DNA of 64,000 nucleotides, from contig CAWEXD010000010.1 in assembly GCA_963812945.1 (NCBI GenBank), positions 558,001 through 622,000 of the forward strand. The letters run 5' to 3'. How positions within the stretch are numbered: position 1 is the stretch's first letter; each line of letters begins with the position of its first letter. Both the position numbers and the translations under genes were made by a program. Below are positions 5,695 to 18,044 of this stretch, in pieces. The notes beneath the pieces are model-generated. The model did not search any database, was not told the origin of the DNA, and saw only the letters and a program-made list of their open reading frames with translations. The DNA is from DASRDR01 sp963812945 [NCBI: uncultured Candidatus Rokubacteria bacterium] (GTDB lineage Bacteria; Methylomirabilota; Methylomirabilia; Rokubacteriales).

Positions 5695-6738
5695 TCAGAC
5701 TGGAACGGCCGCCCTCGCCACGCGGTGCGGCACCGTTCGCGCAGCATACGTCGTGCCGTCGCGCAGCAGCGCGTAGAGGATGCCGGCCAAGCGGCGGGCC
5801 AGCGCGACGACGGCGATCTTCTTCCCGCGGCGCGCGGCGATGCCGGTCGCCCAGGTCCGCAGCGCGTCCGTCTGCGCATGGCGGCAGCGGAGGATCGACA
5901 CGGCCGCCTGGACGAGCAACCAGCGCATCCGCGTATTGCCGGCCTTGGTGATCCGGCCGCGCCGTTGGCTCTCCCCCGAGCTCAACTCCCGGGGGACGAG
6001 GCCGAGATACGCCTCCACCTCATGCGCCCGGTGAAAGCGCTGCGCGTCATCGATCGTGGCTACAAAGGCCGCTGCGGTTACTGGGCCCACGCTGGGGACC
6101 GTCCGCAGCCGCTGCACGCGCTCATCGGGGCGCGTGACCGCCTCGATCGCCCCGTCCGAGTACGCGAGCTGCTGGTTGATGGGCCGCATCACAGCCAGCA
6201 ACGGCGCGACCTCCGAGAGCAGGCGGCCCGGCAGCGGCAGCGCCACAACCCGCCGCATGAAGGTCTCTGCACTCCCGGTTGGCACGCGCCAGCCGTGCCG
6301 GCGCAGCAGGGCCCGGGTCAGGGCGATGTACCCGGTGCGCGTCCGCACCAAGGCGTCGCGCACCGCCAGCCGTCCTCGCACATGCCGCTGCGCGTCGGAC
6401 AGCCGATGCGCGGGGCGGTACGCGCCGAGCAGACAGGCCTCCTGCAGGGCCCGAGCGTCCCGCCGATCGGTCTTGACCTTCCGGGTCCGCGTGGCATACA
6501 TCGGCGCGAAGTTCGGGTCCGCCACCACGACCTCGTGGCCCAAGGCCTCAAGACACCGGGCCACCCATTCACTCTCCGTCGAGGCTTCGACGAGGATCCG
6601 GGCTCGCGGCCGTCCGCCCAACATCTCAGCGAACCGCTGGGGCTCGGTGCGGATGCGGCGTTCGATCACCTCACCCGTCTCCGTGAGCACGCAGATCTGG
6701 CTGTCCTTCTTGTGCAGATCGATGCCAACATATTCCAT
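5695..6738 (-). CDS. IS110-family transposase
   Basis: The 347-residue protein begins MEYVGIDLHKKDSQICVL, the DEDD catalytic start of IS110 transposases. It continues with an acidic ILVEAS, the KTDRRDARAL motif (about residues 100-110), and a C-terminal Transposase_20 region with VPSVGPVTAAAFVATI and GLVPRELSSGES leading to the conserved Ser. The start at 6738 is preceded by AAGGGGG; a longer frame upstream is spurious. IS110 elements lack clear terminal inverted repeats and I could not set the element ends. Its left side abuts a possible hydrolase fragment and its right side an alpha/beta-hydrolase remnant. Confidence 0.92.
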   Translation of the reverse strand: MEYVGIDLHKKDSQICVLTETGEVIERRIRTEPQRFAEMLGGRPRARILVEASTESEWVARCLEALGHEVVVADPNFAPMYATRTRKVKTDRRDARALQEACLLGAYRPAHRLSDAQRHVRGRLAVRDALVRTRTGYIALTRALLRRHGWRVPTGSAETFMRRVVALPLPGRLLSEVAPLLAVMRPINQQLAYSDGAIEAVTRPDERVQRLRTVPSVGPVTAAAFVATIDDAQRFHRAHEVEAYLGLVPRELSSGESQRRGRITKAGNTRMRWLLVQAAVSILRCRHAQTDALRTWATGIAARRGKKIAVVALARRLAGILYALLRDGTTYAARTVPHRVARAAVPV

Positions 6739-6789
6739 GGCTGGCCCCCTTCTCGTGCGCCTGTGAGCGCGTTCTCTCGGTGGGGCAGT

Positions 6790-6992
6790 GTATGCCACCA
6801 CGTTGAGCTGGGGGTCAGCCGCTTCATCCCGTCTACCCCCAAGTTCAGGAGTGCTTCGTTGAATGCCGCGGCGTGGTTGGTCGGCGCGACGTGCCCTCCT
6901 CCAGGAATAACAATGAGTCGCGACCCGGAAATGCAGCGATGGACCGTCTCCGCCGCAAGCGCCGAGATGCACAGGGACCGCCAGCTACGGTT
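6790..6992 (-). pseudogene. Alpha/beta-hydrolase C-terminal remnant
   Basis: A frame that opens after a stop at 6993-6995 reads RCISGSRLIVIPGGGHVAPT followed by NHAAAFNEALLNL. This is the closing segment of alpha/beta-hydrolases with the catalytic His (GGGH) and the usual last helix. No start codon, nucleophile elbow or remaining fold is present. The fragment lies between the second tRNA-Arg copy and the IS110 transposase, marking an older gene destroyed by rearrangement. Confidence 0.55.
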
Positions 6993-7199: not shown

Positions 7200-8534
7200 T
7201 GTCCCGGTTAGAAACCTCATCGGGGCCAGTGTCACGCTGGTTCCACGCTGGGTTTGATCGTCCAGGGCCGGAGGTGCCTCTTCGCTACGGAGATGTGAAG
7301 GGGGCCGGGGGAGGCCCAGGCGTGACCGTGCATCGCCACGCTGCCGGCGGGCGGCCTGCTGGACCGGAGGAAGGAGCGAAGGGTGAATGCGCGGTCGCGG
7401 TGATCAGGCGGCGCGCTGATAGCGGTGGTGGAGCCCGCCGACCTCAGGAATGGCGATGATCCGGCCACATGGTGGGGGTTCGCAAGCTCGGGGCTGGGGA
7501 CTGTTGCCGTCGAGCGATTGGTGTGGCCGCGTGGTGTTGTAGTAGGCGGCGTAGGCGTGCAGGAGTCGGCGGAGGTGGGCCTCGCTCAGAATGAGGAAGT
7601 GATCCAGGCACTCGCGGCGGATGGAGCCGATCACCCGCTCCACGAAGGGGTTCTGCCAGGGCGCGCGGGGGGCGGTGAGGACCTCACGGATCCCCATGCT
7701 CTGGACTCGCCGCGCGAACTCCTTGCCGTAGATCGCGTCTCGATCACGGAGCAGGAACCTGGGAGCCGAATCGTCCGGGAATGCCTCGATGATCTGCCGG
7801 GCGGTCCAGACGGCCGTGGGGTGGTCCGTGACGTTGACATGGAGGAGTTCGCGGCGGTCGTGGTGGAGCACGACGAAGACGGACAAGAGGCGGAAGGCCA
7901 AGGTCGGCACGAGGAAGAAGTCCACGGCGACGATCGCCCGGGCATGCGCGGCCAGAAAGACGCGCCAGGTCGGCGAGGGCCGAGGTGACGCTCGCTGCAT
8001 GTACTTGGTGACGGTCAGCTCGGCGACCTCGTAGCCGAGGAGGGCGAGCTCCGCCTGGATCCGCCGCCGGCCCCACGTCGGATTCTCGCGCGCCATGCGG
8101 TGGATCAGCTGGCGGATCTCAGCGCCAAGCCGCGGCCGCCCCACGCGGTTCGTTGTGGACCGCCAGCGCCAGTAAAGCCGGAAGCCTTGGCGGTGCCAGG
8201 CGAGGACGGTCGCGGGCTGGACAATGACGAGACTCGAGCGCCACCTCGTCCACAGGCGAGACAACCAGACCCAGAGGATCCGGTCCCAACGGGAGAGCCG
8301 GGGTCGGCGGACAGAGCGCTGAAGGACAGCCAGTTGATGGCGCAGCGCCACGTTTTCCAAGGCGATGGCCGCCGACCCGAGGGACAAGGCGCGGAGGAAC
8401 GTCCAGAGACCGATCACGAAGACCATCGGGGCCCCCCGGCATCAGACGTCTGAGCCGAGACTCTACCGGATCAGTGGTGGAGGAGGTAAGGGAAGTTCAA
8501 GCGGGACAAGCGGATGGACTTCTTGACCGGGACA
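7200..8534 (-). mobile_element. Insertion sequence with DDE transposase, about 1.3 kb
   Basis: The transposase gene is bracketed by imperfect inverted ends. The left end reads TGTCCCGGTTAGAA from 7200 and the right end, on the minus strand, reads TGTCCCGGTCAAGAA from 8534; about 16 of 22 bases match. No target duplication is evident. The right end abuts the 5'-truncated LysM gene, and a stop codon in the end sequence closes the frame upstream of that gene. Confidence 0.6.
7404..8426 (-). CDS. DDE (rve integrase-core) transposase
   Basis: The 340-residue protein has an N-terminal region of basic helices, then a helix-turn-helix-like GRPRLGAEIRQLIHRMAREN and NPTWGRRRIQAEL. The retroviral-type integrase core follows: Asp in AIVAVDFF, Asp in LLRDRDAIYG, and Glu in PFVERVIGSIRRECLDH, ending with the family-typical YNTTRPHQSLDG. 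The overall form is close to IS481/IS3-like integrases without a separate orfA. It is full-length and apparently intact, so the element may still be active. Confidence 0.88.
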   Translation of the reverse strand: MVFVIGLWTFLRALSLGSAAIALENVALRHQLAVLQRSVRRPRLSRWDRILWVWLSRLWTRWRSSLVIVQPATVLAWHRQGFRLYWRWRSTTNRVGRPRLGAEIRQLIHRMARENPTWGRRRIQAELALLGYEVAELTVTKYMQRASPRPSPTWRVFLAAHARAIVAVDFFLVPTLAFRLLSVFVVLHHDRRELLHVNVTDHPTAVWTARQIIEAFPDDSAPRFLLRDRDAIYGKEFARRVQSMGIREVLTAPRAPWQNPFVERVIGSIRRECLDHFLILSEAHLRRLLHAYAAYYNTTRPHQSLDGNSPQPRACEPPPCGRIIAIPEVGGLHHRYQRAA

Positions 8535-13693: not shown

Positions 13694-14704
13694 ATGACGC
13701 GACCGCCCAGGGACTTCCAGCGAATCGGTCCGATCGAAGGCGAGCGTTTTCCGGACGTCCGACTCCCCGATCAGACGGGCGCGGTGATCGATCTCCACCA
13801 TGCCCGCGGCGGCCGCCCGGCCCTCGTCGTCTTCTACCGCAGCGCGGAATGGTGACCGTTCTGCAAGACGCAGCTCGTCGAGCTGCAGCGCGTGCTTCCC
13901 ACGCTCGCCACCCAGGGCGTGGGACTCTTCGCCATCAGCTACGATGCGGTCGCGATCCTTCGCGGTTTCGCGATGGAACACGGCATCTCGTTCCCCCTCC
14001 TGTCGGACGAGGGCAGCGAGGCGATCCGGCGCCTCGGCCTGCTCAACGAGCGGGTCCAGGAAGACCACGCCGCCTACGGGGTTCAGCCCAATCCCCGGCA
14101 CCTGGGGGTGCCGTACCCTGGCGTGTTCGTCCTCGACGAGCGAGGCATCGTCGTCCGGAAGCGATTCCACGAGAGCTACCGTGAACGGGACACGGGATCC
14201 GGGCTGATCGCGGACACCTTGGAAGGGCTCGGGGTCACCCCAGTGGGAGACGAGCTACACCCCACCCATCCGGTGCGGATTCGCGCCTGGCTCGACTCAC
14301 CGACCTTCGCCTGGTTTCAGCGCCTCCGGTTGACCATCGAGGTCGTTACCGCCCCGGGAGTCGGGGTGTACGGCCATCCCGCACCTCCCGGGGTCGTGCC
14401 CCTCACAGTCTCAGTCGCACCCATCGAGGGATTGGAAGTCGGTCCGACGACCTGGCCGCCGCCGCTGCATCGCGTGCCGGGAATGCCCGAGGAGGTCGCG
14501 GTGCATACGGGACCGATCCGAGGTTCGCTGCCGTTGACCTTCACGGCGCCTCCTGGCCAGGGAGACCAGATTGTACAGGTCAGCGTCGCCTACCAGGCAT
14601 GCCGTGACTCGAGCACCTTGCCTGCATCATCCATCTACTTCGATCTGCCAGTGCAGGAGCGTGCCCTCATCGGTCGGGTGTTGCCAGCCGAGAGGAAGAC
14701 CTGA
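13694..14704 (+). CDS. Redoxin with in-frame UGA at the active site (candidate selenoprotein)
   Basis: Read through one TGA at 13853-13855, this is a continuous 336-residue protein. Residues 1 to about 175 form an AhpC/TSA-type thioredoxin fold (GERFPDVRLPDQTGAVIDL, LVVFYRSAEW-U-PFCKTQLV, FPLLSDEGSEA, YPGVFVLDERGIVVRKRF). The UGA is residue 54, exactly where relatives have the first Cys of W-C-P-F-C, giving UxxC. Residues about 190-336 resemble a DsbD-alpha-like domain (VQVSVAYQACRDSSTLP). A perfect hairpin follows the UGA. The reading frame stays open on both sides with normal codon use, arguing for recoding over decay; a nonsense pseudogene is the alternative. Confidence 0.72.
13870..13886 (+). 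promoter_or_regulatory. Candidate bacterial SECIS hairpin of the redoxin gene
   Basis: GCAGCUC-GUC-GAGCUGC forms a perfect 7-bp stem with a three-base loop that starts with G. The loop begins 21 bases after the UGA, inside the 16-37 base window used in the known bacterial SECIS model. It lies in coding sequence, as bacterial elements do, and would position SelB for selenocysteine insertion. Confidence 0.6.
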
Positions 14705-14789: not shown

Positions 14790-15095
14790 CTATCGAGTAT
14801 CGTGAGCTGCACCACTTTCCTGTTCTTTCGGGTAGTCGGGCTGCTTGTAGCCGCGACCCGCGACCGCCTGGCACACTCCGGCATTGACGGCTCCGGCGAT
14901 CGTCACGACCGCGTCCAGGGTCTCCTGCGACACCCCCGCCTGCCTCGCCCCCGCGAGGCGTGAGTAGCTTCAGGGCTCGCAGGTGCGCGTCAGCGTGACG
15001 GCCAGCCCGATGAACATTTTCTCGCGCGGCGTCAAAAGTTCGGTGGCGTGAATGGCTTGGTAGTACTCCTGGAACTGCTGCCTGGCGTTGGTCAT
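14790..15095 (-). CDS. AhpD-like protein with in-frame UGA in CxxU (candidate selenoprotein)
   Basis: With one TGA read at 14970-14972 this is a 101-residue carboxymuconolactone-decarboxylase/AhpD-like protein. LLTPREKMFIGLAVTL leads to RTCEP-U-SYSRLAGARQAG and the helix SQETLDAVVTIAGAVNAGV. Cys39 and UGA42 form CxxU where AhpD-like proteins carry CxxC; AhpD-like CxxU proteins are an established selenoprotein type in metagenomes. The ATG has GGAGGG at five bases. Codon use is normal after the UGA and the family helix pattern is intact. It converges with the UGA-containing redoxin, 85 bases apart. Confidence 0.75.
14942..14959 (-). promoter_or_regulatory. Candidate bacterial SECIS hairpin of the AhpD-like gene
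   Basis: On the coding strand GCCUCGC-GGGG-GCGAGGC gives a perfect 7-bp stem with a GGGG loop. The loop starts 17 bases after the UGA, within the accepted spacing for bacterial SECIS elements, and has G in the first loop positions. Confidence 0.62.
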
Positions 15096-15647
15096 AGTAG
15101 CCCTCCGCGAAACACGCTACGCTGCCGGCCGGCCTGGTTCAATCCCGGGGTGCGGGCGCCTAAGCGGGACCACCGAGGCGGCAACCTGCGACTCAGTCGA
15201 ATAGCCAGCAGCAAGTATCCCGCACGTCAACCGCGTGAGAACAGCATCCGTCTTCGGCTTTGTAGCGTGCGCGGCGGCGCATTAAACCGCCTGCGTCGAC
15301 GTGCTTGAACTCCCGCGCTGGTCAGGATGTAAGCGTCGATCTCCGGCCTTCGCCCATGACCTCGGCGCCCACGACGGCCGTGCCAAGGGAGAGGCCAATC
15401 CAGGTATCAGGACGCTGAAGGGAGCATGGCGTCGACGCACGTTCATGCTCGGGCACGATGCGACCGTGCGGCCGTCACGTGGGTCCCGAAAAGGCGCACG
15501 ACCCCGGCCGCCGACTTTGACACCCGCGAGTATACTGAGGGGCTACTGATCCCGGCGACTCGAACGCACAACTCTTGATATGAGCTATAGACGGAAGCTC
15601 CCGGATCTCGAATCCAGCGACGCGCTGGATCGTCGAAGGGGTATCAA
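15096..15647. other. Non-coding gap upstream of the NfeD operon
   Basis: About 550 bases with no convincing gene on either strand. It must contain the promoter of the AhpD-like gene on the left and of the NfeD/FloA operon on the right. No tRNA-Sec or selenium gene was found here. Confidence 0.45.
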
Positions 15648-17057: not shown

Positions 17058-18044
17058 ATGATCGGCATTGAGACCGGAGCCTTCGGAGTCGTCGCGCTCC
17101 TCATTCTGGTCGTGGCGGCGCTCGTCGTCCTTCTCTACCTGATTCCCGTTGGGCTCTGGGTCGCCGCGTTCGCCTCGGGGGCGTATGTCGGCCTCTTCAC
17201 GCTCGTCGGGATGCGCTTGCGACGCGTGCCCCCCGGCACGATCGTCACCGCCCGCATCAGCGCGGTGAAGGCGGGGCTCGACATCTCCGTCAACGATCTG
17301 GAGGCCCACTACCTGGCCGGCGGCAACGTCGTCAACGTCGTGAACGCCATGATCTCGGCGGACAAGGCCAACATCCCGATGCCCTTCAAGCGGGCCGCGG
17401 CCATCGATCTGGCCGGGCGGGACGTGTTGGCGGCGGTGAAGATGTCGGTGATCCCCAAGGTGATCGAGACGCCCCGCATCGCGGCCGTGGCGAAGGATGG
17501 GATCCAGCTCATCGCCGTCTCGCGGGTGACCGTCCGGACCAACATCGACCGACTGGTGGGAGGCGCCGGAGAGGAGACGGTCATCGCACGGGTTGGCGAG
17601 GGCATGGTCAGCACGATTGGCTCGGCCGCATCCCACAAGGACGTGCTCGAGAACCCCGATCACATCTCGAAGCACGTCCTCTCCAAGGGGCTCGACGCCG
17701 GGACGGCCTACGAGATCCTGTCGATCGACATCGCGGATGTGGACGTGGGCGAGAACATCGGCGCGAAGCTCCAGATCGACCAGGCCAACGCGGACAAGCA
17801 GATCGCGCAGGCGAAGGCGGAAGAGCGGCGCGCGATGGCGGTGGCGGAAGAGCAGGAGAACCGGGCGAAGGTTGTCGCCGCGGAGGCCGAGGTACCGCGG
17901 GCCATGGCCGAGGCCTTCCGCCAGGGCAACCTGGGCATCATGGACTACTACCGCATGAAGAACGTCCAGGCGGACACGACCATGCGGGAGGCGATCGCGG
18001 CGCCCGGAGAGGCATCGTCGCCACCCCCCCGCGAGAAGAAGTAG
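17058..18044 (+). CDS. floA: Flotillin-like protein FloA (SPFH domain)
   Basis: The 328-residue protein has an N-terminal membrane hairpin ([20 protein letters not shown] and a second segment). An SPFH/Band-7 region follows ([20 protein letters not shown] to [20 protein letters not shown]), then a long helical segment rich in Ala, Glu, Lys and Gln ([20 protein letters not shown]). This is the FloA/YqfA layout, about 330 residues. Flotillins organise membrane microdomains and act with NfeD proteases. It lies three bases after the NfeD gene, so the two are co-transcribed. Confidence 0.93.

Follow-up and report, generated by a model that had tools for sequence, protein, structure and literature searches.

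A minus-strand gene in the window, by which we mean the whole stretch of 64,000 nucleotides analysed here, encodes a protein of the CMD/AhpD family whose in-frame UGA at codon 42 is, with high probability, decoded as selenocysteine (Sec), giving a Cys39-Sec42 pair with a likely redox role. The selenoprotein reading was put forward from the letters of the DNA, and it gains support from a Pfam CMD match that runs across the UGA, from 18 other loci in which the equivalent codon is likewise TGA, from a covarying hairpin and from Sec genes in the phylum. A gene likely to be dropped by ordinary annotation is thus supported by comparison, beyond the motif alone. Its features are as follows.

14790..15095, minus strand: coding sequence of the putative CMD/AhpD-like selenoprotein, 101 residues with TGA translated as U (Pfam PF02627)
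15102..15106, minus strand: GGAGG resembling a Shine-Dalgarno sequence, 6 nt ahead of the ATG
14979..14981, minus strand: codon of Cys39, first position of the CxxU motif, invariant in 5/5 rows of alignment A1
14970..14972, minus strand: predicted Sec codon (TGA at codon 42), which supplies the U of the CxxU motif, with TGA at the aligned codon of 18 other loci
14942..14959, minus strand: bacterial SECIS-like hairpin with a 7-bp stem (GCCTCGC/GCGAGGC) and a GGGG loop, recognized by its placement and covariation across 19 loci

The coordinates given in the original prediction are right, and the strand is minus: the frame opens with an ATG at 15095, closes with a TAG ending at 14790 and contains a single internal TGA in its 101 codons. 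Translation places Cys39-Glu-Pro-UGA42 at the redox site, where it aligns with the CxxC of Cys homologues as had been proposed, and the ribosome binding site described as good is the GGAGG listed above. No minus-strand ORF of at least 60 amino acids under the ordinary code overlaps 14790-15095. The CMD gene might therefore readily be overlooked by an ordinary caller, in agreement with what had been anticipated.

Comparison with family profiles places the protein in the CMD family. Read with Cys at the UGA, it matches Pfam CMD (PF02627) at 37.7 bits (cut-off 23) over residues 6-75, a span that includes the UGA, and the CxxU pair lies at the family position, with neither Cys39 nor codon 42 varying among the five sequences of A1 and both aligned with the CxxC of Cys homologues. 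The name AhpD-like, used in the original prediction, holds for the superfamily and fails for AhpD proper, since the match to TIGR00777 (14.3 bits) lies far below its cut-off of 191.95. With AhpD as known from Mycobacterium and Corynebacterium, the window protein has the superfamily in common by sequence. The redox pair there is CxxC; the window protein would carry Sec for the second Cys, and Arg46 stands where we take the His of the AhpD CxxCxxxH signature to be. The best NCBIfam matches to the CxxU domain are MduS (NF045649, 49.3 bits, residues 1-85) and NF041537 (37.3 bits, residues 3-76), both reached through the C-terminal AhpD parts of selenoprotein models, MduS and ArsM_AhpD_UU, and both far short of the whole-family cut-offs of 380 and 510 bits, respectively. 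Unlike MduS and the ArsM/AhpD selenoprotein, the window protein has only 101 residues and no fused methyltransferase. Among PDB sequences, chain 3bey_A comes closest (E 4.4e-06), with CDAC at the motif. A single-sequence AlphaFold2 model, of low confidence (mean pLDDT 58.0), has helices at residues 4-17, 23-37, 48-52 and 57-79.

The UGA is conserved well beyond the window. TGA occupies the codon equivalent to codon 42 in 18 further loci, drawn from two whole-genome groups, and the loci read at that codon in these two groups comprise 18 TGA, 30 CxxC (14 + 16) and 1 TAA. In the window's own phylum, a query with the single protein matched 18 of 95 genomes, and the profile A1, built from five TGA members and applied at a threshold of 1e-9, gave 19 matches in 16 of the 95: 4 TGA (G010, G007 and two in G011, hence three genomes), 1 TAA (G005) and 14 CxxC. 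A second phylum-level group, reached through locus L002, sampled at 395 genomes and searched at 1e-12, matched in 79 genomes; 30 of these matches, with loci read at the codon, comprised 14 TGA and 16 CxxC. Six genomes of other groups, reached through FloA loci, yielded two matches, both CxxC. A further TGA, in G072, was set aside: it falls outside the domain, past its end, in a gene whose motif reads CxxC. Scanning genome contigs with the protein as a pattern matched 55 stretches, none of which was confirmed, and a plasmid search by protein returned six records, all below 40% identity.

The TGA forms nearest to the window protein are those of G011 (copy G011a, 48% identity over 75 residues) and G300 (53% over 55 residues), the nearest Cys form is that of G304 (45% over 73 residues), and most other relatives in the TGA set have about 26-32% identity; the genomes searched contained none that exceeds 50% identity along the full length of the protein. 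In the tree, the window protein clusters with G011a, G300 and the Cys form of G304 (support 95/93), a placement that carries a long-branch warning. In the same tree, the CxxC forms of L148 (G492) and L156 (G456) adjoin TGA forms, which suggests that Sec and Cys may have been exchanged repeatedly.

One locus departs from both states. At L118 (G005:C87, approximately 224-508), in a gene closely related to that of G007, the Sec codon is TAA instead of TGA, and a second TAA lies near the C-terminal end of the match, where the G007 gene also ends in TAA. A dead copy or a fault in the assembly would be the likely explanation; use of TAA as an alternative Sec codon was rejected as the simplest reading, because the anticodon of the G005 tRNA-Sec is TCA.

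The hairpin downstream of the UGA was found as originally described, with a perfect 7-bp stem and 17 nt between the UGA and its GGGG loop, and it has a folding energy of -13.8 kcal/mol for the hairpin alone. As a general rule, the bacterial SECIS (bSECIS) is a short hairpin with a G in its apical loop; the rules as formulated in PMC13188914 call for a loop of 3-9 nt, a stem of 4-16 bp, a distance of 16-37 nt from the UGA, an energy of -7.5 kcal/mol or lower and a G in the first two loop positions. The window hairpin satisfies them (loop 4, stem 7, GGGG, 17 nt, -13.8), as do 17% of the 1242 window TGA triplets tested, among which it ranks in the best 2.7%. Agreement with these rules was therefore rejected as proof by itself in so GC-rich a window.

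Placement is more telling. In 19 of 19 TGA members, 17-18 nt separate the UGA from the loop of the lowest-energy uninterrupted hairpin in the 14-37 nt searched. A tight criterion (stem of at least 6 bp, loop of 3-4 nt with G in the first two positions and starting at 17-18 nt) is satisfied by 28 of 2774 background TGAs and by 51 of 4978 coding codons, about 1% in each case; looser loops of 3-9 nt at 17-18 nt bring the figure to 2.8-2.9%. Among synonymous recodings of the window's downstream peptide, the tight-criterion hairpin appears in 0.17%. Exceptions to the published energy limit occur: considered singly, seven of the 19 hairpins, at -6.4 to -7.4, fail narrowly to reach -7.5. The G428 hairpin has either a 5-nt loop or one mispair with a 3-nt loop.

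Pairing is also maintained across the 19 loci, from which the TAA locus of G005 was omitted. At seven pairs per locus, standard pairs fill 128 of the 133 cells, compared with a mean of 107.4 after shuffling the 3' letters among sequences, and none of 5000 shuffles reached 128. The loci contain 15 distinct stems, with pair 3 taking the forms CG, GC, TG, TA and AT. Pairs were counted in the better of two registers per sequence (loop at 17 nt with 4 nt, or at 18 nt with 3 nt), a choice that favours pairing, and the DNA alignment A2 was left aside because the two registers do not line up in it. The shuffle kept the chosen registers without repeating the choice, and its result is not a probability, since related sequences can outdo it without any structure and the register was chosen in favour of pairing. 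More weight falls on the fixed placement, for which the background is about 1%, and on the 0.17% seen in synonymous recodings, than on the shuffle count.

The machinery for Sec insertion is widespread in the phylum of the window, Methylomirabilota, within which its closest affinity is to Rokubacteria. FloA, encoded at 17058-18044, is 92% identical to that of Candidatus Rokubacteria CSP1-6, and the window's GyrB, compared with 95 phylum genomes (87 matched), is closest to G096 (82%) and then G004 (75%). Both of these genomes carry SelB and tRNA-Sec, as do G007, G010, G011 and G005. SelB (TIGR00475) scores above its cut-off in 84 of the 95 phylum genomes and in 2 of 14 control genomes; tRNA-Sec (RF01852) does so in 79 of 95 and in 5 of 14, the latter count indicating that its cut-off may admit some other tRNAs. 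ARAGORN assigned a tRNA-Sec with a TCA anticodon to all four loci given to it. The 14 TGA genomes of the second group include 12 with SelB (not G300 or G112), 12 with tRNA-Sec (not G300 or G457) and 11 with both. Neither passes its cut-off in the available assembly of G300, whose TGA form is one of the two nearest to the window protein; 24 bases separate the CMD match there from the end of its contig, and incompleteness of the assembly is a possible cause.

Presence of SelB does not separate TGA genomes from Cys genomes, and its use as a discriminator was rejected: 12 of 14 TGA genomes have it, compared with 18 of the 19 genomes in which only CxxC forms were read. The observation singled out in advance as adverse to the prediction was a Cys codon in close relatives whose genomes lack selB and selC. 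It was not encountered among the relatives found: the genome of G304, the nearest Cys relative, has SelB over the cut-off.

Two other readings of the UGA deserve consideration. In the less probable of them, which we regard as very improbable, it would be a true stop or be read through without Sec, and the similarity downstream would be a remnant or a separate short ORF. Stop codons are rare in this high-GC window and open frames after a TGA are common, so the open frame that follows is weak evidence of coding; at the window's stop frequency, the chance of meeting no stop in 59 codons is about 0.45. Termination at codon 42 would, against this, give a 41-residue product that ends within the conserved domain, short of the second redox residue. 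The match to the family profile also continues beyond the UGA, and TCA-anticodon tRNA-Sec was recovered at every locus submitted to ARAGORN. Codon usage was scored in six frames against ten genes of the window, and the coding frame is the best of six both in residues 1-41 (score 0.289, GC3 0.88) and in residues 43-77 (score 0.045, GC3 0.886). For 35-codon pieces of the reference genes, the 95% point of shifted frames is -0.92 and the 5% point of in-frame pieces is 0.248, so that residues 43-77 fall below the latter. The tail, residues 78-101, is atypical (score -0.749, GC3 0.54). The conserved domain looks coding on either side of the UGA, with a usage somewhat unlike that of ordinary window genes, as might be found in a horizontally acquired gene.

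The same depressed usage after the UGA would suit a decaying CMD gene, in which a Cys codon had mutated to TGA, or been misread as TGA through a sequencing error, while the frame stayed recognizable. The window provides the one copy of its subclade available from its close lineage, and the TAA at the equivalent codon in G005 indicates that dead copies may occur. Decay is nevertheless hard to reconcile with a TGA that recurs at 18 other loci with a covarying hairpin at the equivalent place in each, or with a hairpin seen so rarely in synonymous recodings of the window's own sequence. The start codon, the Shine-Dalgarno sequence and the conserved domain on both sides of the UGA are all intact; the original prediction had argued on similar lines, from a good ribosome binding site and intact family helices. 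We consider decay only slightly more probable than a true stop, and very improbable in its own right.

Under the favoured selenocysteine reading, tRNA-Sec and SelB would decode the UGA at codon 42 during translation, and the hairpin beginning 10 nt after it would direct this decoding. Selenocysteine would then take the position of the second Cys in the family CxxC motif, and the Cys39-Sec42 pair would most likely make the protein a selenol/thiol-disulfide oxidoreductase: a selenenylsulfide would form and be resolved as electrons move on to peroxidases or other disulfide substrates. We infer from the comparisons above that Sec is inserted in this genome and that the protein has a redox role, and the same holds for any substrate or partner.

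A candidate partner lies next to the CMD gene. Two further features were recorded there.

13694..14704, plus strand: AhpC/TSA-family (Prx-like) gene, a second selenoprotein candidate, Pfam AhpC-TSA 86.7 bits (cut-off 26)
13870..13886, plus strand: SECIS-like hairpin of the Prx-like gene (GCAGCTC-GTC-GAGCTGC), with its loop 21 nt after the UGA and the same stem as in G059 and G057

The Prx-like gene has a UGA at codon 54 (13853-13855) within the motif Trp-UGA-Pro-Phe-Cys (WUPFC, a UxxC arrangement) and ends in a TGA stop; its C-terminal part gives a weak, sub-threshold match to DsbD_N (18 bits, cut-off 25). It is presumably the other selenoprotein candidate to which the original prediction alluded. 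Homologues occur in 2 of 95 genomes: in G059, where identity is 62% over 332 residues, and at the end of a contig in G057, where 89 residues show 76% identity. Both have TGA at the equivalent codon, an identical hairpin stem and a loop at 21 nt. SelB passes its cut-off in both genomes, and tRNA-Sec over cut-off was found in neither.

The Prx-like gene lies downstream of the CMD gene, 85 bases away and convergent with it, so the two do not form one operon. AhpD-type proteins have been described as reductases of AhpC-type peroxidases that act through CxxC (PMC8945050, PMC10460364), which makes the neighbour a reasonable, and testable, candidate partner of the CMD protein by analogy. A conserved partnership of the two genes finds no support among relatives: profile A1 at 1e-9 finds no CMD match in G059 or G057, and no AhpC-like protein was seen by eye near the CMD genes of G011a and G300 among ORFs of at least 100 and at least 120 amino acids under the ordinary code, a listing in which a UGA-split gene could be missed. 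It is conceivable, and on balance rather doubtful, that the two would form an all-selenium AhpC/AhpD-like relay, in which the UxxC Prx-like protein, with its weakly DsbD_N-like C-terminal part, would act on a peroxide or disulfide as reductant and would itself be re-reduced through selenol chemistry by the CMD protein with its CxxU, in a subclade distinct from the arsM-linked ones.

The family itself is already known, and the description of AhpD-like CxxU selenoproteins as an established class is borne out by the literature: CMD-like PF02627 CxxU proteins are tabulated among prokaryotic selenoprotein families (PMC13188914, PMC9312934), an 'AhpD-like 2' selenoprotein appears in the GOS set (PMC2398784) and a 'CMD domain-containing' selenoprotein in the Sargasso Sea set (PMC1088965). 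The window protein has the Pfam family and the CxxU motif in common with these, and its likeness to the published CMD-like and AhpD-like 2 proteins is one of family and motif rather than of sequence alignment. A Prx-like/AhpD-like selenoprotein pair is likewise in print (PMC2398784, PMC13188914), and PMC13188914 also refers to a Methylomirabilota MAG in which 63 selenoproteins are predicted. No description of this particular gene was found in the available portions of the selenoprotein literature on Rokubacteria/Methylomirabilota, AhpD-like proteins, MduS and CMD. Judged from its sequence, the window gene very probably adds a Rokubacteria-related member to the known CxxU CMD family, and the 19-locus hairpin set offers a compact example of a covarying SECIS that could seed a family-specific model.

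The neighbourhoods of other relatives differ from that of the window gene. In L113, L114, L115 and L118 (G007, G010, a second G011 copy designated G011b, and G005), an unfused CMD-like gene is followed by a frame that looks ArsM-like by eye. The CMD genes of G007, G010 and G011b are homologous to the window protein (28-31% identity), with TGA at the equivalent codon and a loop at 18 nt, and they lie directly upstream of the ArsM-like frame, whereas the window gene does not. These four ArsM-adjoining loci (three TGA, one TAA) resemble the NCBIfam ArsM_AhpD selenoprotein. Near the G300 CMD gene, a minus-strand frame of locus L171 (G300:C44, 2673-3089) appears by eye to be CMD/peroxidase-related, without CxxC. 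Within the window, two long minus-strand ORFs at 5695-6972 and 7404-8426 appear transposase-like by eye (IS110-like and IS3/integrase-like).
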